NCBI GenBank assembly: GCA_005893225.1
Contig: VBOT01000002.1
Coordinates: forward strand, 3,720-42,455
Direction: 5' to 3'
Origin: Candidatus Eiseniibacteriota bacterium
Lineage (GTDB): Bacteria > Eisenbacteria > RBG-16-71-46
DNA: 38,736 nt
Shown here: in pieces, positions 22,044 through 31,399 of the stretch
Numbering within the stretch: position 1 is the first letter of the stretch
How the letters are laid out: each line of letters starts with the position of its first letter
Made by a program: the position numbers and the translations under genes
The notes under the pieces: model-generated
What the model was told of the DNA's origin: nothing
Database searches by the model: none
What the model saw: the letters and a program-made list of their open reading frames with translations, nothing else

Positions 22044-24335
22044 TCACCGCGAGGGCGGGTCGGCCCCTGGCTCAGTCCGCGGACCCGCCACGTTGCGGGC
22101 GAGGAACGCCTCGATCCGCTGGTAGAGGCGCCGCGTCACCACCGGGTCCGGCACCATGTGGGTGAAGCCCGCCAGGGGGAGAAACTCGAACGGCTTCCCA
22201 GCGCGGAACAACGCCTCGCAGAGCTTCATGCTGTGCAGGAAGTAGACGTTGTCGTCGGCGGTGCCGTGCACGAGGAGCAGCGGGCGCTCGAGCCGGTCGG
22301 CATAGGTCAGTACCGACGCGGCCTGGTAACCGCCGGGGTTGTCGTCCGGGAGCCCCATGTAACGTTCGGTGTAATGCGTGTCGTAGTCACGCCAGTCCAC
22401 CACCGGGGCGCCGGCCACGCTGGCTCTGAAGACGTCGGGCCGCCGCATGATGGCCATGGCCGAGAAGTATCCACCGAAGGACCAGCCGTAGATCCCGACT
22501 CGCGAGAGATCGAGCTCGGGATAGACGGCGCCGAGAGCCCGCAATCCCTCGACCTGATCTTCCAGAGGAACCTCGATGAGGTTTCCCTTGATCGCGCGCT
22601 CCCAGGCGCGCCCGCGTCCCGGCGTGCCGCGTCCGTCCAGCATCACCACCACGAAGCCGTGATCCGCGAGCCACTGGGGGAGCAGAAACGGGTTGCGCGA
22701 GCGCGTGACCATCTGCCCGTGCGGGCCGCCGTAGACGTTCACGATCACCGGATAGCGCACGCCGGGTCTGAAGCTTCTCGGGCGCAGGATCGCGGCGCGA
22801 TACTTCCGCGGTCCCACGGCGACGAACTGGACCCGGGGCGTGACCAGCGGAATCTCGGCAAGCGAGCGAAGAGTGGCGATTGTTTTCCCGTGTGCGTCGA
22901 CCACGGTCTGCGTGGGTGACCCGTCGGATCGTGACAGCGAGCGGACCGCCACCTGGTGCTGGGTCGCGAACACCGTCCCGTTCATTCCCGGATCGTGCGT
23001 CACCTGCTCGATCGACGCGCGATGGGGATCGAGGGGCACGCGGAAGATCTGGATCTGGGTCGGATCGTCTCCTCCCGTGACCCACGCGCATCCTGCCCCC
23101 TGGTCGGCGTCGACGAAGCCGCGCAGGTTGAAGGTTCGCGGCGTCAGGGTGCGGAGGAGGCGCCCGCTCTTGCCATGCAGCTCGAGCTGCCAGCTTCCGC
23201 GGCGCTCGGTGGTCCAGAGGAACGCGCTGCCGTCGTCGAGCCAGTGTGGCATCTTGGGGTCGAGATTGAGCCAGGCCATGTCGCGCTCCACCCACAGCGT
23301 TCGCGTGGCGCCGCTCACCTCGTCCACGGCCAGCAGCGCCTCCTCGGTCTGGCGGCGGTTCTGCACCACCAGGGTGAGCGGCGCGTTCTTGGTCCACCTC
23401 GCCACGGCCAGGTAGGGATAGCTCTGGCGGTCCCACTTCACCCACGTCGTCTTCCCTCCCGTCGCGGGGATGATCCCGAGGCGCACCTCGGCGTTGCTCC
23501 TCCCCGGGCGCGGGTAGCGCCAGGCTTGCGGCTCTCGCTCGGGATGCGCGGGGTCCATGATGTGGAGCACCTCGACCGGCGCCGTGTCGGTCTCCTGATA
23601 GGCGATGCGGCGGCTGTCGGGAGACCACCAGTAGCCGCTGAAGCGATCCATCTCCTCCTGGGCGACGAACTCGGCGAGGCCGTGGGTGATGGTCCCGCTC
23701 GCCCCGCTCGTGATCCTCCGCTCGCGGCCCGAATCGACATCGAAGACGCTAAGATCGCCGTTGCGGACGCACGCCACTTGCGATCCATCGGGCGAGAACT
23801 GCGGATCGATCGGGAATCCGCGCCCGCCGTTCAGTTCCTTGATGGCGCCGCTCCCCCGCTCGATTACGAACAGCCGCCCGGCGAGCGGCACCAGGACGCG
23901 GCGGCCGTCCTCGGAGAGGTCGTAGGAGACGATCCCTCGCGTGGCGACGCGCTGGCGCTCGCGCCGCGCCGATTCCTCGGCCGTCAGGCGCTCCCCGCCG
24001 CCGTGAAGGACGCGCGCCGCGGTGAGGAGGACGCGCTCGCGCCGGGTCGCGACCTCGAAGCACCAGAGGTCGTTGACGAAGCTGCGCGGGCCCGAGCGCA
24101 GGAACAGGACCTGATCGCCGTGGGGAGTGACCTTGATATTCGAGGGGAGTCCGAGGTTGAACCGGTAGGTCGCGGCGTACTGCTCGAGGAATCCGCTGTC
24201 GGGGTCGGCGAAGCTGCCGGCCGCGGCCGCGGCGCCCGCCCGAGCGGGCGCGACGAGGGCGAGCGCCAGGATGAGGATCAGCCCGATCAGCCGGTTCACG
24301 ACCTGATTGTGAACCAGGTTCGGGGCAGCGTCCAT
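22044..24335 (-). CDS. Dipeptidyl-peptidase IV family serine peptidase (S9B)
   Basis: The 763-residue product (from ATG 24335) has a signal peptide (NRLIGLILILALALVAPARAGA). An N-terminal beta-propeller includes the DPP4 Glu-Glu motif in FVAQEEMDRFSGYWWSPD, which binds the substrate N-terminus. The C-terminal alpha/beta-hydrolase has nucleophile GWSFGG (Ser about residue 619), Asp in HGTADDNVYF and His in AGFTHMV. YGGPHGQMV provides the oxyanion-region Tyr. It releases X-Pro or similar dipeptides in the periplasm. An in-frame ATG at 24377 would add 14 residues without changing the signal peptide core, and GTG codons inside the signal region are also possible. It is divergent from the Cys-rich leader/ATP-grasp operon, sharing an 83-nt gap. 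Confidence 0.93.
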   Translation of the reverse strand: MDAAPNLVHNQVVNRLIGLILILALALVAPARAGAAAAAGSFADPDSGFLEQYAATYRFNLGLPSNIKVTPHGDQVLFLRSGPRSFVNDLWCFEVATRRERVLLTAARVLHGGGERLTAEESARRERQRVATRGIVSYDLSEDGRRVLVPLAGRLFVIERGSGAIKELNGGRGFPIDPQFSPDGSQVACVRNGDLSVFDVDSGRERRITSGASGTITHGLAEFVAQEEMDRFSGYWWSPDSRRIAYQETDTAPVEVLHIMDPAHPEREPQAWRYPRPGRSNAEVRLGIIPATGGKTTWVKWDRQSYPYLAVARWTKNAPLTLVVQNRRQTEEALLAVDEVSGATRTLWVERDMAWLNLDPKMPHWLDDGSAFLWTTERRGSWQLELHGKSGRLLRTLTPRTFNLRGFVDADQGAGCAWVTGGDDPTQIQIFRVPLDPHRASIEQVTHDPGMNGTVFATQHQVAVRSLSRSDGSPTQTVVDAHGKTIATLRSLAEIPLVTPRVQFVAVGPRKYRAAILRPRSFRPGVRYPVIVNVYGGPHGQMVTRSRNPFLLPQWLADHGFVVVMLDGRGTPGRGRAWERAIKGNLIEVPLEDQVEGLRALGAVYPELDLSRVGIYGWSFGGYFSAMAIMRRPDVFRASVAGAPVVDWRDYDTHYTERYMGLPDDNPGGYQAASVLTYADRLERPLLLVHGTADDNVYFLHSMKLCEALFRAGKPFEFLPLAGFTHMVPDPVVTRRLYQRIEAFLARNVAGPRTEPGADPPSR

Positions 24336-24382
24336 CGGATGTGGAGGGCGTGACGCGGAACAACGCGCGGCCAACAATAGTC

Positions 24383-24412
24383 TTGACTCCCGACGTTTAC
24401 CGAGCCTAATCT
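24383..24412 (+). promoter_or_regulatory. Promoter for a leaderless cysteine-rich leader ORF
   Basis: TTGACT (-35, 24383-24388), an 18-nt spacer and TAATCT (-10, 24407-24412). With the usual 6-7 nt offset, transcription would start at about 24418-24419, the A of the leader ATG, so the mRNA would be leaderless. The -35 sequence and 18-nt spacer match the lexA promoter in this window. Confidence 0.65.
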
Positions 24413-24418
24413 CCGCGC

Positions 24419-24508
24419 ATGCTGATCGGACATGTGTGCCCGCTGTGTGCCTTCACGATGTGTTGTTGTCCGCCGTGCGGGCGAGAGGGGGCGTGCCTGA
24501 TCCGATAG
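24419..24508 (+). CDS. 29-residue cysteine-rich leader peptide (putative attenuator uORF)
   Basis: This ATG-to-TAG ORF of 29 codons has seven cysteines at residues 7, 10, 15, 16, 17, 20 and 26, including MCCCPPC. Cys is normally scarce (about 1%), so seven in 29 is striking. Four of the seven codons (10, 15, 16, 17) are TGT, the codon expected to be rarer in GC-rich DNA. No ribosome site precedes the ATG; instead the promoter positions the first transcribed base at the ATG. An intrinsic terminator follows 22 nt after the stop and the ATP-grasp gene 100 nt after it. Polycysteine leaderless uORFs that sense Cys-tRNA are known upstream of sulfur genes in mycobacteria. This looks like an independent example. 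The main alternative is a RiPP-type precursor modified by the adjacent ATP-grasp and flavin enzymes. Confidence 0.65.
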   Translation: MLIGHVCPLCAFTMCCCPPCGREGACLIR

Positions 24509-24544
24509 CGTAAACGACCCGACCATCTCCACCCGCTGACGGCG
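24438..24544 (+). promoter_or_regulatory. Alternative RNA pairings of the Cys leader (1:2 and 2:3 antiterminator)
   Basis: Strand 1 GCCCGC (24438-24443, codons 7-9) can pair with strand 2 GCGGGC (24477-24482). Strand 2 with its 5' flank, CGCCGT plus GCGGG (24471-24481), can instead pair with strand 3, CCCGC (24532-24536) and ACGGCG (24539-24544), giving 11 bp with a 2-nt bulge. Strand 3 is the left arm of the terminator, so 2:3 and 3:4 exclude each other. A ribosome stalled at Cys7/Cys10 would cover strand 1 and favour readthrough. The pairings were drawn by eye; energies were not computed. Confidence 0.5.
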
Positions 24545-24568
24545 AACCGCAGCGGGTTTTTCGTTTTC
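24531..24568 (+). terminator. Intrinsic terminator / attenuator before the ATP-grasp gene
   Basis: ACCCGCTG (24531-24538) pairs with CAGCGGGT (24550-24557). Inside this, CGG and CCG pair around a CGAA tetraloop with one bulged A. The stem is followed immediately by TTTTCGTTTTC. This is the clearest rho-independent terminator in the window, yet it lies between a promoter and the genes it should serve, which is the hallmark of an attenuator. Confidence 0.8.
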
Positions 24569-24608
24569 GCCCGGCACGGTGCGTCGCCAGCAGCACAAGG
24601 AGCATCCG

Positions 24609-25748
24609 GTGACGCACCCACGAACCCTAGCTGTCTACTACGAGCACCCCGACTGGTTTCGCCCGCTGTTCGCAGAGCTGGAACGGCGCGGTGTCCACCA
24701 CGTCCGGGTGGACGCGGGCCGCTTCTCCTTCGATCCGGCGGCGCAGATCGATCCGGCCCCACACGGGGTGGGGCGCGACGCCACCGACGCGAGCGATGCC
24801 CCGATCGCCGCGGCGCCCTCCACGAACGGCGCGGGCCACACGCTGGTCTTCAACCGCATGAGCCCCTCGGCATGGAAGCGGGGGCGTGGCCACGCCATCC
24901 TCTACACCCTTCACTACCTGCGCTACCTCGAGCGCGCCGGCGTGCCGGTGGTGAACGGGGTGCGCGCCTTCACCGTCGAGACCAGCAAGGCGCTCCAGGT
25001 CTCGCTCATCCGGCGGCTCGGGCTCCTCGCTCCGCGCACGCGGGTCGTCAACCACCCGACCGTGCTACCCGCAGCCGCCCCGGGCCTGGAGTTCCCGCTG
25101 GTCGTCAAGCCCAACATCGGGGGCAGCGGGGCCGGCATCGTGCGCTTCGACGCGCAGGAGGAGCTCGAGGCGGCGGTGGCGCAGGATCTCATTCCGCCCT
25201 CGGTGGACGAGATCCTATTGCTCCAGGAATTCCATCCCTCGCGCGACGGCAGCATCGTGCGGGTCGAGACGCTTGAGGGGCGCTACCTCTACGGCATCCG
25301 CGTCCATATCGAGGAGGGTGCCGGCTACAACCTCTGCCCGGCCGACATCTGCAGGGACGTGAGCGGCCATGCCCTCGAGAGCGCCGCGTGCCCGGCCGGG
25401 GCGGCGCAAGCCGGTCTTTCCGTCGAGGCGTACGAGCCATCCGGCGAGATCCGCTCCGAGGTCGAGGCGATCGCGCGCGCCTCGGGCCTCGACGTGGGCG
25501 GGATCGAGTACCTGGTGAGCCGGCGCGACGGACGCCGCTACTACTACGACATCAACGCTCTGTCCAACTTCGTGGCGGACCCGGTGCGAGTGCTGGGGTT
25601 CGATCCGACCGCGAAGCTGGTCGACGCCCTGGTGGCGCGAGCGAGCGCAACGCGGCCGGCAGCCTGGGCTCGCAGCAAGCCCGGGCGCGTGCGCGTGGCG
25701 GCGAGACGGGCCTCGGGCAACCTGGCGCGCGCGAAGAGGGCGTCATGA
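24609..25748 (+). CDS. ATP-grasp ligase (RimK-like) of unknown substrate
   Basis: The 379-residue protein starts at GTG 24609, with AAGGAG (24597-24602) at ideal spacing. The N-terminal ~110 residues form a pre-ATP-grasp domain (TLAVYYEHPDWFRPLFAELERRG). The ATP-grasp fold follows: FPLVVKPNIGGSGAGIVRF (Lys167, Gly-rich loop), ILLLQEFHP, then GGIEYLVSRRDGRRYYYDINALSNF with the metal-binding acidic/Asn residues. The Arg/Ala-rich tail looks disordered. ATP-grasp enzymes join a carboxylate to an amine or thiol nucleophile through an acyl phosphate. Two cysteines in CPADICRD lie in the substrate region. The stop overlaps the flavin monooxygenase start by 4 nt (ATGA). Placed behind a Cys-rich leader, it may make or use a thiol compound or peptide; this is inference. 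Confidence 0.87.
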   Translation: MTHPRTLAVYYEHPDWFRPLFAELERRGVHHVRVDAGRFSFDPAAQIDPAPHGVGRDATDASDAPIAAAPSTNGAGHTLVFNRMSPSAWKRGRGHAILYTLHYLRYLERAGVPVVNGVRAFTVETSKALQVSLIRRLGLLAPRTRVVNHPTVLPAAAPGLEFPLVVKPNIGGSGAGIVRFDAQEELEAAVAQDLIPPSVDEILLLQEFHPSRDGSIVRVETLEGRYLYGIRVHIEEGAGYNLCPADICRDVSGHALESAACPAGAAQAGLSVEAYEPSGEIRSEVEAIARASGLDVGGIEYLVSRRDGRRYYYDINALSNFVADPVRVLGFDPTAKLVDALVARASATRPAAWARSKPGRVRVAARRASGNLARAKRAS

Positions 25749-26806
25749 GCCTCCGACTCGGCTACTGGATGCCGGTCTTCGGCGGCTGGCTGCGCAACGT
25801 CGAGGACGAGGGGATGTCCGCGACGTGGGAGGAGGTACGGGCGCTGGCGGTGAGGAGCGAGCGCATCGGGTTCGACCTCACGCTGATCGCGGAGCTGCTG
25901 CTCAACGACATCAAGGGGCCCGAGGCGCCGGCGCTCGAGGCCTGGTCCACCGCCGCCGCCCTGGCCGCCGTGACCGAGAGGCTGGAGCTGATGGTGGCGG
26001 TGCGGCCGACCTTCCACCACCCGGGACTGCTCGCCAAGGAAGCCGCCAACATCGACCACATCGCGGGCGGGCGGCTGTCGCTCAACGTGGTGTCGTCGTG
26101 GTGGCGCGACGAGGCCACCCAGTTCGGGCTCCCATTCGACACCCACGACGCGCGCTACGCGCGCACCGAGGAGTGGCTGGCGGTGGTGAAGGGGCTCTGG
26201 ACCGAGCCGCGCTTCAACCACAGGGGCGAGCTCTACCGGATCGAGGAGGCGATCCTCGAGCCCAAACCGCTCCGCAAGCCCTGGCCGCCCCTCTACGCCG
26301 GAGGGGAGTCCGAGGCGGCGAAGGACCTGATCGCGCGCGACTGCGACGCCTACGTGATGCACGGTGACCCGCCCGAGCGGGTGGCGGCGAAGATCGCCGA
26401 CATGCAGGCTCGCCGCGCCCGTCTCGCCCCCGGCGCCCCGCCGTTGCTCTTCGGGGTGGCCGGCTACGTGGTGCTGCGCGATACGGAGGAAGGGGCGCGT
26501 CGGGAGCTGGCGCGCATCACCAACGTGCGCGGCTCGGCTCGCGGCTACTCCAATTACCAGCAGTGGCTCGCCGGCACGCAACTCGAGCAGCGCGTGAGCC
26601 TCGAGGACTATTCGGTATCCAACCGGGGACTCAGGTCCGGGTTGATCGGGGCTCCCGAGCCGGTGGCCGAGCGGCTCGAGGAGTTCGAGCGCGCCGGAGT
26701 GAACCTGATGCTGCTCCAGTTCAGCCCGCAGGCCGAGGAGATGGAGCGCTTCGCCGAGCAGGTGATCCCGCTGCTGCGAAAGGAGGGGGCGGTGGCAGCC
26801 GCTTAG
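25745..26806 (+). CDS. LLM-class FMN-dependent monooxygenase (SfnG/SsuD-like)
   Basis: The 353-residue TIM-barrel flavoprotein belongs to the bacterial-luciferase family. Signature segments are LMVAVRPTFHHPGLLAKEAANIDHIAGGRLSLNVVSSWW, YARTEEWLAVVKGLW, PPLYAGGESEAAKDLIARDCDAYVMHGDPPE and a C-terminal SGLIGAPEPVAERLEEF. This layout is that of the alkanesulfonate (SsuD) and dimethylsulfone (SfnG) monooxygenases, which release sulfite from organosulfur compounds using reduced FMN. No flavin reductase gene is nearby. Its ATG overlaps the ATP-grasp stop. Its own stop overlaps by 4 nt the stop of the convergent transporter gene. Sulfonate-type chemistry fits control by a cysteine-sensing leader, but the substrate is unproven. 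Confidence 0.88.
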   Translation: MSLRLGYWMPVFGGWLRNVEDEGMSATWEEVRALAVRSERIGFDLTLIAELLLNDIKGPEAPALEAWSTAAALAAVTERLELMVAVRPTFHHPGLLAKEAANIDHIAGGRLSLNVVSSWWRDEATQFGLPFDTHDARYARTEEWLAVVKGLWTEPRFNHRGELYRIEEAILEPKPLRKPWPPLYAGGESEAAKDLIARDCDAYVMHGDPPERVAAKIADMQARRARLAPGAPPLLFGVAGYVVLRDTEEGARRELARITNVRGSARGYSNYQQWLAGTQLEQRVSLEDYSVSNRGLRSGLIGAPEPVAERLEEFERAGVNLMLLQFSPQAEEMERFAEQVIPLLRKEGAVAAA

Positions 26807-28593
26807 TGCAAGTGAACCAGCCCGATCGTGACCAGGATCGGGATCACCACCGCGACGATCGCCTCGCCGGCGATGAAGCCCGACGCGACCGGAGTGAGGT
26901 GCCGGTCCGCGTTCTCCTTCGACACCTTGCTCCAGATCTCGCCCACGATGCCGCCCAGGAACATGGTGATGATGGCGCTCGCGGGGACCAGCATCCCGAT
27001 CCCGATGCCGGTCGGCGAGGGCACCCACTTCTTGTTGATCCGCGTGTCCTCGAGCACCGTGAACAGGATCCCGAGCACCACGGCGATCACGAGCGCCATG
27101 ACCGCGCCTCGGGGCAGCGCGCTCAGGCCCTGGGAGAGGAGCTTGGCGAACCCGGCCCACCGCTGCGAGGTCGGCACCTGGAGGCCGTGTTCCCCGCCGA
27201 TCCCGTAGGTGTCGCGGAGCAGCGGGTAAACGTACGAGACCGCGGCGGCGCCGATCGGCACCGCGAGCAGCTGGGCGTAGGTGAGGAAGCGCGGCGTGCT
27301 CCCGATCATGTAGCCGGTCTTGTAATCCTGCATCAGCCCCTCGGACTGGCTCGCGATCGAGCCGGTCACGCCGCTCGCCGCCATGTTGGCCGCCACCTGC
27401 CCGGGAGCCAGGACGCCGAAGATGGCCTGCATCATGTTCGAGAGAGCGCTGATTGGTCCCCAGTTGGTCTCGCCGAGCACCCGCAGGCCCACCAGCATGA
27501 GGACGATCGAGAAGATCATCGCCACGACCGTCATCCACACCGGCTGGCCGAGGATCACGCGCTGCACCACGATCAGCGCCGCCGCGCTCGCGATCGCCCC
27601 GCCGATCACCCAGCGCATCGGGAAGTCCTCGCTCCGGACCGCCGCCCCCGAGAGGTTCCGGAACGTTCGCACCAGCAGGTGCCAGCGCAGCGCGAGCGCC
27701 GTGAGGCCGCCGGCGACCAGCATCCCGGTCGCGGGCCACATGACCCATAGCAGCACCTCGCGGCGGACCAGCCCCGAGATGATGTGGCGGTCGAGGAGGA
27801 GCGGAGGCGCGACGATCCACGACAGAGCCGTCCCGATCAGCATGCTGGTGTTGATCCGCATCCCGACCAGCAAGCCCGAGCCCAGGCTCAGGAGGCTCCA
27901 GCTCACGCCCACGCCCATCGAGGGCCCGGTCGGCCCGAGCACCTTCATCTCGGGGATGCGGTACCAGACTTCGCCGAGCAGGCGGGCGTCCTCGCGGATC
28001 GTCATCACCAGCGCCGAGAGCGCCGTGCTCCATCCCATCGAGCGCGCCGCGGCCCTGCCCTCGGCGCCGCGAGAGTCGAGCACGATCAGCGTCTCGCCGG
28101 CGGCGACCCCGTCGGCGTAGGTGAGCTTCTGGTCCACCACGAAGTGCTGGCGCATCGGCACCGCGAGCAGCACGCCGAGGCAGCCCGCCGTGGTGAGCCA
28201 CGCGAACGACTGGAGCGGCGAGATCGTGAGTGTGAAGTGGAGGCTCGGGTCGGAGCGCAGGATGTCGAAGGCGGCGAGCAGCACGCACATGAACGCGGTC
28301 TGGCCGGCCGAGGTGCCGGCGGTCTGGACGATGTTGTTCTCCCACCGGTTGAAGGTGCGGGAGACGATCCCGAGTGCCAGATAGCCGAAGAAGGCCGACA
28401 CCACCGAGATGTTGGGGCCGAACCCGAGCTTCATGACGACGTAGGGATACGAGGCGCCGATCACCGCGGCGACGAGCATCGCCACGAGCGCCGCGCGGAG
28501 GGTGAATTCGCGCACCCCGGGCGGCTTGAGAGGCCCCTGGTGCGGGCCCGACTCGGCGCGCAGAGCCTGCTCGGGAAGGGTGACGGCCGGCAT
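26803..28593 (-). CDS. OPT-family oligopeptide transporter
   Basis: This 596-residue polytopic protein has about 14-16 membrane segments. OPT-type signatures include SYPYVVMKLGFGPNISVVSAFFGYLALG, NNIVQTAGTSAGQTAFMCVL, KLTYADGVAAGETLIV, then GVTGSIASQSEGLMQDYKTGYMIGSTPR. ATG 28593 gives a short hydrophilic N-terminus before the first helix; the longer frame to 28683 has no family similarity. Bacterial OPT members import short peptides or metal chelates by proton symport. The gene is convergent with the LLM gene, and the two stops share TTAG (26803-26806), so no terminator separates them. An inverted repeat upstream (28613-28629) may be an operator. Confidence 0.9.
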   Translation of the reverse strand: MPAVTLPEQALRAESGPHQGPLKPPGVREFTLRAALVAMLVAAVIGASYPYVVMKLGFGPNISVVSAFFGYLALGIVSRTFNRWENNIVQTAGTSAGQTAFMCVLLAAFDILRSDPSLHFTLTISPLQSFAWLTTAGCLGVLLAVPMRQHFVVDQKLTYADGVAAGETLIVLDSRGAEGRAAARSMGWSTALSALVMTIREDARLLGEVWYRIPEMKVLGPTGPSMGVGVSWSLLSLGSGLLVGMRINTSMLIGTALSWIVAPPLLLDRHIISGLVRREVLLWVMWPATGMLVAGGLTALALRWHLLVRTFRNLSGAAVRSEDFPMRWVIGGAIASAAALIVVQRVILGQPVWMTVVAMIFSIVLMLVGLRVLGETNWGPISALSNMMQAIFGVLAPGQVAANMAASGVTGSIASQSEGLMQDYKTGYMIGSTPRFLTYAQLLAVPIGAAAVSYVYPLLRDTYGIGGEHGLQVPTSQRWAGFAKLLSQGLSALPRGAVMALVIAVVLGILFTVLEDTRINKKWVPSPTGIGIGMLVPASAIITMFLGGIVGEIWSKVSKENADRHLTPVASGFIAGEAIVAVVIPILVTIGLVHLH

Positions 28594-28612
28594 GGTCGCC
28601 GAGCTTACACGA

Positions 28613-28629
28613 TCCAGGGCGCGCCTGGA
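28613..28629. promoter_or_regulatory. Inverted repeat in the OPT/lipoprotein divergent spacer
   Basis: TCCAGGGCGCGCCTGGA has 6-bp perfect arms around GCGCG and lies 20-36 nt upstream of the OPT start, inside the 84-nt divergent spacer. The position suits an operator overlapping an OPT promoter, but no convincing -35/-10 pair was recognised. Confidence 0.35.
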
Positions 28630-28677
28630 GACGCATTCACACTGCAGCGGGCGGCCTCGGGTGCCGAAAAATAGGAC

Positions 28678-28920
28678 ATGCACCCGAACAGGAAGAGGCT
28701 CGGATGGAAGGCCGCGGTTGCGGCGGCGTGCCTCATGGCCGCCGGGGCCTGCTCCTCACCGAGGGATAACGCCGCGCCCGCCTCGACGCTCACCGAGCAT
28801 CAGCGCGACAGCGTTCTGGCCCGGTCGGCCTTGCCGGGCGCCGGGGTGGTCGGCAGGGCGATATCGGAGTCCCAGCGGGCCGCGACCCAGGCGGCCCAGA
28901 TGGATTCGCTGAGCCGCTGA
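28678..28920 (+). CDS. Small putative lipoprotein
   Basis: The 80-residue protein has a positively charged start (MHPNRKRLGWK), a short hydrophobic segment (AAVAAACLMAAGAC) ending in a lipobox-like AGAC, then a polar mature part, about 55 residues, rich in Ser, Ala, Gln and Arg (LTEHQRDSVLARSALPG). The lipobox is weak because it lacks Leu at -3, so a plain secreted protein is possible. The family is not recognised. It is divergent from the OPT gene. Codon use and length look like a real gene, but there is no homology-based function. Confidence 0.6.
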   Translation: MHPNRKRLGWKAAVAAACLMAAGACSSPRDNAAPASTLTEHQRDSVLARSALPGAGVVGRAISESQRAATQAAQMDSLSR

Positions 28921-29241: not shown

Positions 29242-30150
29242 ATGCAAGGTAAGCCGGCCCTCTGGTCTTCATCTCTCAAGCGGTCAACGGCGAGCGCTCT
29301 TCTCATCCTGGCGAGCGCGAGCAGCGCTCATGCGGCGCCGAGGATGGACCACGTGATCGTGGTCATCATGGAGAACCATTCCTACAATCAGGTGCGCTCT
29401 GCCTCCTACACGGCGAGCCTGATTGCGAACGGGACGGTCTTCACGAACGCCCATGCGGTCACCCATCCTTCCGAACCCAACTACCTCGCTCTGTGGGCTG
29501 CCGCGACGCTGGGAGTCACCAACGATGCCTGCCCGGCGCCGGGCTCGCCCCTGATGGCCGAGAACCTGGGACACGCGTGCGAAAAGGCGGGACTGACCTG
29601 GAGGGCGTACTCCGAGAACCTGCCGAGCGCCGGGTCGGACGTGTGCTCGGCGGACAGCAAGCTCTACACGCGCAAGCACGATCCGTGGACGAACTTCGGA
29701 AACCTCAACCACCAGAACGAACGGCCGTATTCCGATCTGGCCGTGGACATCGCGCAAGGAAAGCTTCCGAATCTCGCGTTCGTGGTCCCCAACAACTGCA
29801 ACAACTCCCACGACTGCTCCGTGAGCCAGGCCGACGGCTGGCTATCGCATAACGCGCCTGCCATGCGCAATGCCCTGGGGAACAAGGGCATGCTCGTTCT
29901 CACCTGGGACGAGAACGACGGCAGCTCGGGGAATCAGATCCTCACGGTGTTCGCGGGGACACCCGTCAGGCGCGGCTATCAGTCGGGTCAGAACATCAAC
30001 CACTACAGCGTGGTGCGCACGATCTGCGAGGCCCTCGGAATCACGCCGTTCGCCGGCGCGGCGGGCCAGCAATCCATCGCGGACGTCTGGGTCCAGCCCA
30101 CCCCTGCCCTTACCGCGTCATGGGGCAGGGTGAAGACGATCTACAGGTAG
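29242..30150 (+). CDS. Secreted phosphoesterase (AcpA/phospholipase C family), copy 1
   Basis: The 302-residue protein has a signal peptide ending in SSAHA-AP. The PF04185-type phosphoesterase core starts at MDHVIVVIMENHSYNQV, with the metal-binding Glu-Asn. It continues with TNAHAVTHPSEPNYLALWA (Ser/His catalytic region), YTRKHDPWTNF, LAFVVPNNCNNSHDCSV and LVLTWDENDGSSGNQILTVFAG, where DEND binds metal. These enzymes hydrolyse phosphomonoesters or phospholipids outside the cytoplasm. Six or more Cys suggest disulfides. The SD is strong (GAGGAGGATCCC). A paralogue follows at 30485-31399. Confidence 0.9.
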   Translation: MQGKPALWSSSLKRSTASALLILASASSAHAAPRMDHVIVVIMENHSYNQVRSASYTASLIANGTVFTNAHAVTHPSEPNYLALWAAATLGVTNDACPAPGSPLMAENLGHACEKAGLTWRAYSENLPSAGSDVCSADSKLYTRKHDPWTNFGNLNHQNERPYSDLAVDIAQGKLPNLAFVVPNNCNNSHDCSVSQADGWLSHNAPAMRNALGNKGMLVLTWDENDGSSGNQILTVFAGTPVRRGYQSGQNINHYSVVRTICEALGITPFAGAAGQQSIADVWVQPTPALTASWGRVKTIYR

Positions 30151-30403: not shown

Positions 30404-30484
30404 ATATTCGGCCAGAGAACCAGCCCCCTTCGAACCACCATCTGCGTACCCGTGCCCGCCGGGTACCCATCTCTTGGGGAACCA

Positions 30485-31399
30485 ATGCCCCCTTCAACCT
30501 CCGCGCCGTACGCGTCCTGTGCCCGATGGCTCGGGATGGCCGCGCTCCTCATCTCCACGGCAGGGGGCCCCGCAAGTGCCTCCGTGCCCCGGCTGGATCA
30601 TGTCATCGTGGTGATCATGGAGAACAAGTCCTACGATCAGGTGCGAACCCAGCCGTATATCACGAACCTCATCACCCAGGGGACGGTGTTCACGAATTCA
30701 TACGCGGTCACGCACCCCTCATTGCCAAACTACATCGCGCTTTGGGCAGCGACCACGATGGGCGTGACCACCGACGCCTGCCCGCCGCCGGGGGCGCCTT
30801 ACTCGGTCGAGAACCTTGGGCACCGTTGCGAGGCCGCAGGACTGACCTGGAGAAGCTATTCGGAGAACCTTCCGGCGGCAGGATCGACCGTCTGCACCGC
30901 CGACAGCAAGCGCTACACACGCAAACACGATCCGTGGACCTACTTCTCGAACCTGAACCACCTGAACGAGAGGCCCTACTCGGACCTGAGCCTGGAGATC
31001 TCGCAGGGGAAGCTTCCGAGGCTGGCGTTCGTGGTCCCGAACAACGACCACAACATGCATGACGGCACCATCGCCCAGGGAGACGCCTGGCTGTCGAACA
31101 ACGTGCCGCCCATGCTTTCCGCCGTGGGCGTCAAGGGGATGGTGGTGCTCACCTGGGACGAGGACAACGACGCTTCCGGGAATCACATCCTGACCGTGGC
31201 CGTCGGGCCGCAGGTCAAGCCGCGGTACGCGTCCACGGCGACGATCAACCACTACGGAGTCGTGCGAATGCTGTGCGAGTGCCTCGGGCTCACGCCCTTC
31301 GCGGGCGCGTCATCGCAGCCCTCGGTGGGGGACATCTGGGTGGCGCCCACCCCCGTACAGGCTTCCACGTGGGGCAGGATCAAGACGCTCTATCGTTGA
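30485..31399 (+). CDS. Secreted phosphoesterase (AcpA/phospholipase C family), copy 2
   Basis: The 304-residue product starts at ATG 30485; an upstream GTG at 30452 would add 11 residues. A signal peptide (LGMAALLISTAGGPASAS) precedes the same catalytic core as copy 1: LDHVIVVIMENKSYDQV, TNSYAVTHPSLPNYIALWA, YTRKHDPWTYF, LAFVVPNNDHNMHDG, LTWDEDNDASGNHILTVAVG. The two proteins align along their full length, with identical residues at nearly every catalytic block, pointing to tandem duplication. Copy 2 replaces the CNNSHDCS disulfide segment of copy 1 with DHNMHDGT, so stability or specificity may differ. It has its own AT-rich upstream region and is probably expressed separately. Confidence 0.9.
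   Translation: MPPSTSAPYASCARWLGMAALLISTAGGPASASVPRLDHVIVVIMENKSYDQVRTQPYITNLITQGTVFTNSYAVTHPSLPNYIALWAATTMGVTTDACPPPGAPYSVENLGHRCEAAGLTWRSYSENLPAAGSTVCTADSKRYTRKHDPWTYFSNLNHLNERPYSDLSLEISQGKLPRLAFVVPNNDHNMHDGTIAQGDAWLSNNVPPMLSAVGVKGMVVLTWDEDNDASGNHILTVAVGPQVKPRYASTATINHYGVVRMLCECLGLTPFAGASSQPSVGDIWVAPTPVQASTWGRIKTLYR

Follow-up and report, generated by a model that had tools for sequence, protein, structure and literature searches.

This locus raises the question of what a short, cysteine-rich open reading frame (ORF) does when it stands between a promoter and a terminator-like hairpin at the head of an operon. The locus lies in a stretch of 38,736 nt of contig VBOT01000002.1 from a Candidatus Eiseniibacteriota bacterium (the whole stretch is called the window; its source assembly has 3.37 Mb), and the operon encodes a RimK-like ATP-grasp ligase and an SfnG/SsuD-like flavin monooxygenase. 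Judged by comparison of loci and by predicted RNA folding, the leader is probably, at roughly 0.87, a leaderless, ribosome-mediated, cysteine-responsive transcription attenuator. The ORF itself, the enrichment of Cys codons over loci, the terminator, the spacing of promoter and start codon and the competing pairing in silico are shown by the analysis. The elements, with positions counted from the first letter of the window, are:

24383..24412, forward strand: sigma-70-like promoter TTGACT-18-TAATCT, assigned by sequence (score 8/12) and by the position test over loci
24419..24508, forward strand: putatively leaderless poly-Cys leader ORF with Cys codons 7, 10, 15, 16, 17, 20 and 26; Cys-rich ORFs occur in relatives
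24448..24456, forward strand: region 1, immediately past the start of Cys10; in RNA free of ribosomes it pairs with region 2 (minimum-free-energy pairs)
24475..24483, forward strand: region 2, GTGCGGGCG, downstream of the CCC run, candidate antiterminator arm by predicted pairing
24531..24538, forward strand: region 3, terminator 5' arm ACCCGCTG
24550..24567, forward strand: region 4, terminator 3' arm CAGCGGGT with T-rich tail
24609..25748, forward strand: RimK-like ATP-grasp ligase gene, GTG start with AAGGAG just upstream (TIGR00768, 45.7 bits, cut-off of 143.4 not reached)
25745..26806, forward strand: SfnG/SsuD-like flavin monooxygenase gene, its start overlapping the ATP-grasp stop (TIGR04021, 249.8 bits, cut-off of 382.95 not reached)

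The leader ORF translates to MLIGHVCPLCAFTMCCCPPCGREGACLIR, with 7 Cys codons out of 29 and a run of three. TTGACT (24383-24388) and TAATCT (24407-24412) are separated by an 18 nt spacer, and the A of the ATG lies 7 nt past the end of the -10 box (6 nt between), so that 24419 is the usual place for a +1 downstream of such a box. The terminator stem-loop at 24531-24557 reads ACCCGCTG-A-CGG-CGAA-CCG-CAGCGGGT, with a folding energy of -19.1 kcal/mol, and is followed by the T-rich tail TTTTCGTTTT, the whole terminator covering 24531-24567. An earlier note on this DNA had described the 29-codon ORF with seven Cys, a promoter placing +1 at its ATG, a U-tract hairpin behind it and a two-gene operon with an SfnG/SsuD-like monooxygenase; each of these was found again as described, the partner of the monooxygenase being the RimK-like ATP-grasp protein. 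A generic promoter/terminator scanner reported neither promoter nor terminator in the window, the former because its score of 8/12 is below the limit of 9, the latter because the loop of the outer stem exceeds the scanner's loop length. An Rfam search of 24200-24800 gave nothing at the gathering score (two sub-threshold matches, both on the minus strand) and no S box, i.e. no S-adenosylmethionine (SAM-I) riboswitch, in that stretch. The stretch from ORF to terminator did not fold unusually well as a whole (z -1.56, 13/200 shuffles equally good); of 40 dinucleotide-shuffled copies of the region upstream in the window, none reached 5 Cys within 12 codons. By shuffles and by recurrence in relatives, the arrangement of leader, promoter and terminator exceeds chance.

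For the comparison, an alignment scan with the ATP-grasp protein was used, from which the best 80 of 386 relatives were taken; this set spans Acidobacteria, Gemmatimonadetes, Planctomycetes, Pontibacter and other Bacteroidota, Eisenbacteria and others. A further 23 loci came from 297 genomes searched in one phylum; four of them were copies and were left out. L003 and L005 were excluded as copies of L086 and L109, and L036, having no upstream sequence, was excluded from the 99-locus count. The Cys content was scored as the highest count in any 12 consecutive codons of a short ORF within 420 nt upstream. Over the 99 loci, 54 reached a threshold of 3 Cys per 12 codons, 39 one of 4 and 26 one of 5; among 1980 random 420-nt segments from the same loci the counts were 209, 36 and 5, respectively. 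As a strand control, a Cys-rich short ORF was found in 36/81 loci on the forward and in 1/81 on the reverse strand. Cys was the outlier among the amino acids upstream of the operon (z 19.1), followed by Met (9.5) and Leu (8.5); most other amino acids were mildly raised because upstream regions contain more short ORFs than random segments do. Outside the Cys run the peptides vary (MCCCPPCG, MCMCMCCCTRERNGG, CACFCCCMPLNERT, CCCCCCC-stop), with Cys cores such as MCCC, MCMCMCCC, CACFCCC and CCCCCCC. Free variation outside the Cys codons is what a codon-reading leader would predict and would not be expected of a functional peptide.

In the first set of 80 loci, a terminator just downstream was present in 32/46 loci with at least 3 Cys versus 8/34 without. 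Two same-family relatives are G006 (L086) and G014 (L109), in which a gene resembling flavin mononucleotide (FMN) reductase heads the operon and is preceded by a CCC-bearing short ORF and a hairpin; in the relative G008 the contig end falls within the ATP-grasp gene. The ATP-grasp gene was found at E 1e-20 in 5/47 genomes of the window's class. The pattern GAGCGG...GCCGCTC...GAGCGGC occurred in 7/20 genomes, in four of them as the operon leader, the other matches being L119, L121, L122 and L123. Selenocysteine encoded by one in-frame TGA was considered as well and rejected, the TGA in L003, L004 and L005 being where the ATP-grasp gene normally stops.

Leaderless initiation of the Cys ORFs is supported by the position of promoter-like boxes. 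A promoter pair scoring at least 8/12, with 4-10 nt from the end of the -10 box to an in-frame start codon, was found in 21/49 Cys-ORF loci versus 23/1358 controls, and one scoring at least 9/12 at the same spacing in 13/49 loci versus 3/1358 control positions, which have fewer in-frame starts per site (1.72 vs 2.43) and include coding DNA. For this test, 5/54 Cys loci were dropped for having no start codon within 75 nt. By eye, some loci (L051, L060, L073) appear to have a short 5' untranslated region.

The competing pairing was assessed by the ensemble free energy gained on adding the terminator 5' arm to the ORF segment that a ribosome at the first Cys would leave free. In most Acidobacteriota leaders having a terminator, it takes the form GGCCGCTC-loop-GAGCGGCC-T-run, and the leader ORFs of this phylum often carry GAGCGG (Glu-Arg) soon after the Cys codons. 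The arms differ by clade and tend to match the ORF: GAGCGG/CCGCTC, GGGAGC/GCTCCC in Eisenbacteria and GCGGG/CCCGC in the window and several Acidobacteriota. Binding of the 5' arm to the ORF segment was above the shuffle mean in 35/37 loci, close relatives included (mean z -2.03, t -8.5), with L039 and L061 as the exceptions. When arms were swapped between types, the mean was -19.1 kcal/mol with the own arm vs -15.6 kcal/mol with the other type, 29/41 loci favoured their own, and 0/10,000 permutations were as low. In the window the pairing is modest (z -1.46, 5/60 shuffles equally strong). The predicted terminator occupancy there is 0.25 with the ribosome at Cys7, 0.34 at Cys10, and lies at 0.88-0.98 for ribosomes at codon 11 or beyond; with a stall at Cys7, Cys10 or Cys15 and the 3' arm not yet made, 24477-24481 is predicted to pair with 24532-24536, for Cys15 only until the terminator 3' arm is made.

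From these features we infer that the ORF is translated, that ribosomes stall in it, that transcription terminates behind it and that cysteine is the signal. Transcription would start at the ATG of the poly-Cys ORF. With enough Cys-tRNA, the ribosome would pass the Cys codons and cover region 2, the terminator (3:4) would form and the operon would be off. With scarce Cys-tRNA, the ribosome would stall on the Cys codons, region 1 being covered with the ribosome at Cys10, and region 2 would be free to pair with region 3 (2:3); this pairing would block the terminator, and the ATP-grasp/monooxygenase operon would be transcribed.

Several observations weigh against this mechanism. The swap test was unfavourable for type B leaders (-14.8 vs -15.9 kcal/mol), the window among them (-15.2 vs -19.2 kcal/mol). 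Occupancy in the window shows no clean step, being 0.01-0.20 at codons 1-4 (close to zero at 1-3) and 0.56-0.90 at codons 5-6 (0.90 at 6), and the terminator is predicted at 0.98 already at the CCC run, so that any effect of this run would have to be kinetic. In most loci the equilibrium occupancy remains high despite stalling; L060, L073 and the window alone show a clear fall. The earlier note had looked to relatives for Cys codons and terminators; in many the Cys codons persist and the other residues change, and most Cys-ORF loci keep a terminator, but 45/99 loci, including the Gemmata loci and eight gp2 Acidobacteria, have no short ORF of at least 3 Cys per 12 codons, in a set whose close relatives make the counts not independent. 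The same-class relative G028 likewise has no Cys-rich short ORF in the upstream stretch examined, and 14/46 Cys-ORF loci are without a terminator by a simple scan. Cys leaders were also absent from all six loci with PF01053 matches in four Eisenbacteria-family genomes. Taken alone the window would be a moderate case, and the argument for an attenuator would rest on the comparative set, which supports the earlier interpretation.

A similar device is found before other sulfur genes. Upstream regions were examined for 33 loci with matches to phosphoadenosine phosphosulfate (PAPS) reductase, sulfite reductase or PF01053, excluding weak or partial matches and matches without a locus, in operon-bearing genomes of Acidobacteriota, the Eisenbacteria family, Nafulsella and one Gemmatimonadete. 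Of these, 9/33 had and 24/33 lacked a short ORF reaching 4 Cys per 12 codons. Five of the nine, all in Acidobacteriota, combine the Cys-rich ORF with a hairpin and a T-run: L249 and L250 before a CysM-like cysteine synthase and a PF01053 enzyme (82 nt from ORF stop to gene), L161 (82 nt) and L158 (112 nt) before NirA-family nitrite/sulfite reductases, and L152 at 533 nt upstream of a gene named CysD-like by eye. Pairing between arm and ORF was above the shuffle mean in 5/5 of these further loci (z -2.8, -1.1, -2.2, -4.7 and -4.4). The remaining loci with a Cys-rich ORF are L149, L153, L154 and L256.

In Bacteroidota the Cys ORF is combined with a riboswitch. In 7/8 Bacteroidota operon loci (L056, L061, L069, L082, L091, L097 and L105) the Cys ORF comes immediately after a SAM-I aptamer (69.8-82.5 bits); no such aptamer was found in the other loci searched (sets of 6, 14 and 16). 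S boxes occur in 40/41 genomes of the family of Pontibacter ruber. A census of all S boxes above the cut-off in 13 Bacteroidota genomes (n = 53), with target labels assigned by motif and agreeing with Pfam on ten examples, gave a short ORF of at least 3 Cys per 12 codons after 38/38 S boxes not preceding metH or a gene resembling cystathionine gamma-synthase (CGS), with at least 4 Cys in 34 of them and 37 passing a strict rule (ORF start at most 135 nt from the aptamer start, ORF end before the gene). By target, the leader was present before metY in 10/10 (by motif), the ATP-grasp/monooxygenase operon in 8/8, cysH in 7/7, an amino-acid permease in 5/5 and others in 8/8, these last including metY by eye, sulfite reductase twice, antiporter-like and TonB-type genes and an M14 peptidase. 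Among the S boxes before metH (13) and CGS-like genes (2), 0/15 had at least 4 Cys and 0/15 passed the strict rule; three metH loci reached 3 Cys, in frames overlapping metH itself. Under the strict rule in 70 loci (the S-box loci being numbered L162-L231), the leader was found before metY in 16/16, cysH 7/7, permease 7/7, the operon 8/8 and others 7/8 (L218 failing), and before metH in 0/18, CGS-like in 0/3 and homoserine dehydrogenase-like genes in 0/3. For the 41 loci reaching 4 Cys or more, the distance from aptamer start to leader start is 88-129 nt, and in 40/41 the last Cys is at most one residue from the stop. No conserved terminator was identified in five aligned Pontibacter leaders. 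With the leader ORF behind the aptamer, such RNAs would read two sulfur signals one after the other.

Other explanations of the Cys ORF were weighed against attenuation. The ORF might sense cysteine and yet act on translation of the first gene, by coupling or unmasking of its start as is reported from mycobacteria, the hairpin being incidental. Cys leader ORFs without terminators are described for Actinobacteria in the relevant passage of PMC1262725, and in three Acidobacteriota loci (L133, L136, L140) the ORF ends in NCG.xFESN, its stop lying 24-25 nt before the ATP-grasp gene with no hairpin seen. The hairpin and T-run between ORF and gene in 32/46 loci and the complementarity of the hairpin 5' arm to the ORF speak against this explanation, which we regard as improbable. 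The NCG.xFESN ORFs are perhaps a translational or a decayed form of the leader. A nascent Cys-rich peptide could also sense metal or thiol redox state, rather than the ribosome reporting Cys-tRNA charging; copper sensing by Cys-bearing upstream ORFs of the CutF type exists, and the passage of PMC9973294 gives a CxxxC motif, an export signal and a proline-rich C-terminus as its features. By eye, the window ORF and its relatives have none of these and no fixed Cys spacing, runs up to CCCCCCC close the ORF, at a point at which the peptide would still be inside the ribosome, and the targets elsewhere are sulfur genes, so that peptide sensing appears more improbable still than translational control.

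Two further possibilities concern the nature of the ORF. It could encode the precursor of a ribosomally synthesized and post-translationally modified peptide, matured by the ATP-grasp protein and the monooxygenase; the peptide is small and Cys-rich, and the ATP-grasp fold resembles the graspetide ligase PsnB (template modelling score, TM, 0.57). No conserved core or leader is seen by eye, however, length and sequence being free except for Cys, and similar ORFs precede CysM-like, NirA-family, CysD-like, CysH and MetY genes, with no ATP-grasp protein or monooxygenase encoded in first place, which leaves this idea hardly credible. A chance ORF in a GC-rich spacer before an ordinary terminator deserves next to no weight either: the pattern TGYTGYTGY is frequent in the window's genome (297 occurrences, no clear excess over the 281 of its reversed control), but the comparative counts contradict it, Cys-rich ORFs being enriched relative to random segments, to shuffles and to the reverse strand and being placed at promoters.

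Amino-acid attenuators are textbook knowledge, and enteric trp/his leaders work with tandem regulatory codons, alternative 1:2, 2:3 and 3:4 pairing and an intrinsic terminator. The window leader shares tandem codons and the terminator with them, and its predicted pairings would follow the same scheme; it differs in its Cys codons, the putative leaderless start and a candidate antiterminator arm inside the ORF after the regulatory codons. Mycobacteria reportedly possess leaderless polycysteine small ORFs, going by the title of Canestrari et al. 2020 (Mol Microbiol 114:93), and the likeness to that case would be the putative leaderless start. That study is cited in a passage of PMC13236596. Cys leader ORFs of Mycobacterium, P. 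acnes and B. longum are described in part of PMC1262725, which for the Mycobacterium leaders gives no conserved terminator hairpin; these resemble the window leader as short ORFs with runs of Cys codons before sulfur genes, whereas the window leader has a terminator and a complementary arm and belongs to other phyla and another operon. For Flavobacterium, leader-peptide attenuation before amino-acid operons is described in a passage of PMC9723704 that does not name cysteine. The Bacteroidota cases differ from the plain SAM-I riboswitch (S box, RF00162) in its combination with a Cys leader predicted to be translated. Cys leaders of Actinobacteria are thus known, lacking terminators; in the open-licence literature searched, neither a leaderless cysteine attenuator with a terminator in several phyla nor a SAM riboswitch joined with a Cys leader was found.

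Regarding the operon, both proteins score below the cut-off of their best NCBIfam model. The monooxygenase, found in 73/81 operon loci, is nearest to PDB 3rao (422 bits) and 8vw6 (347.5 bits), with SfnG 8t0u at 177 bits; the predicted ATP-grasp fold (mean predicted local distance difference test, pLDDT, 82.9) is nearest to ArgX/LysX and PsnB, the TM value for the latter being by query length. Like the two-component flavin monooxygenases SfnG, SsuD and MsuD, the second gene belongs to that sequence family, and an FMN-reductase-like gene is found in 9/81 operon loci (Pfam-checked in L086); it differs from them in scoring below the SfnG equivalog cut-off and in having an ATP-grasp ligase as partner. 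Among 18 operon-bearing genomes searched, several of them incomplete assemblies (G008 has a rated completeness of 100%, and the Pontibacter ruber genome comes from an isolate), no match to PAPS reductase was found in 13 and none to siroheme sulfite/nitrite reductase (NIR_SIR domain) in 12, the window's genome, G000, being among both. Genomes without a PAPS-reductase or NIR_SIR match include G000, G006, G008, G014 and G374. In such genomes desulfonation of sulfonates to sulfite would not obviously feed cysteine, as the next step would be lacking. Organosulfur scavenging is a plausible role of the operon. Its chemistry may, as a guess, be a C-S cleavage freeing cysteine or other reduced sulfur, with the ATP-grasp protein attaching a carrier or blocking group. 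The S-(2-succino)cysteine route of B. subtilis may be an analogy to such cleavage. Convergent with the operon lies an OPT-family oligopeptide transporter (26803-28683, minus strand), for which import of peptide sulfur is conceivable, and two tandem phosphoesterase-family (PF04185) proteins are encoded further on at 29242-30150 and 30452-31399 (plus strand).

Taken together, it is likely that a leaderless poly-Cys/terminator regulon sensing cysteine is widespread outside Actinobacteria, that its fusion with SAM-I in Bacteroidota senses both SAM and Cys-tRNA at genes of sulfur assimilation and import and not at metH, homoserine dehydrogenase or CGS-like genes, and that the ATP-grasp/monooxygenase operon belongs to cysteine supply, an assignment made by placement in a set of genomes many of which have no detectable PAPS reductase or siroheme sulfite reductase. 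Fusing a riboswitch to a leader that reads codons would amount to an RNA logic gate, for which the same riboswitch without a leader before metH is a natural control. The operon so labelled often occurs in bacteria for which the search of two families of sulfate/sulfite reduction genes gave no match. As a functional label, the leader would mark this operon of unstudied chemistry as a likely source of cysteine.

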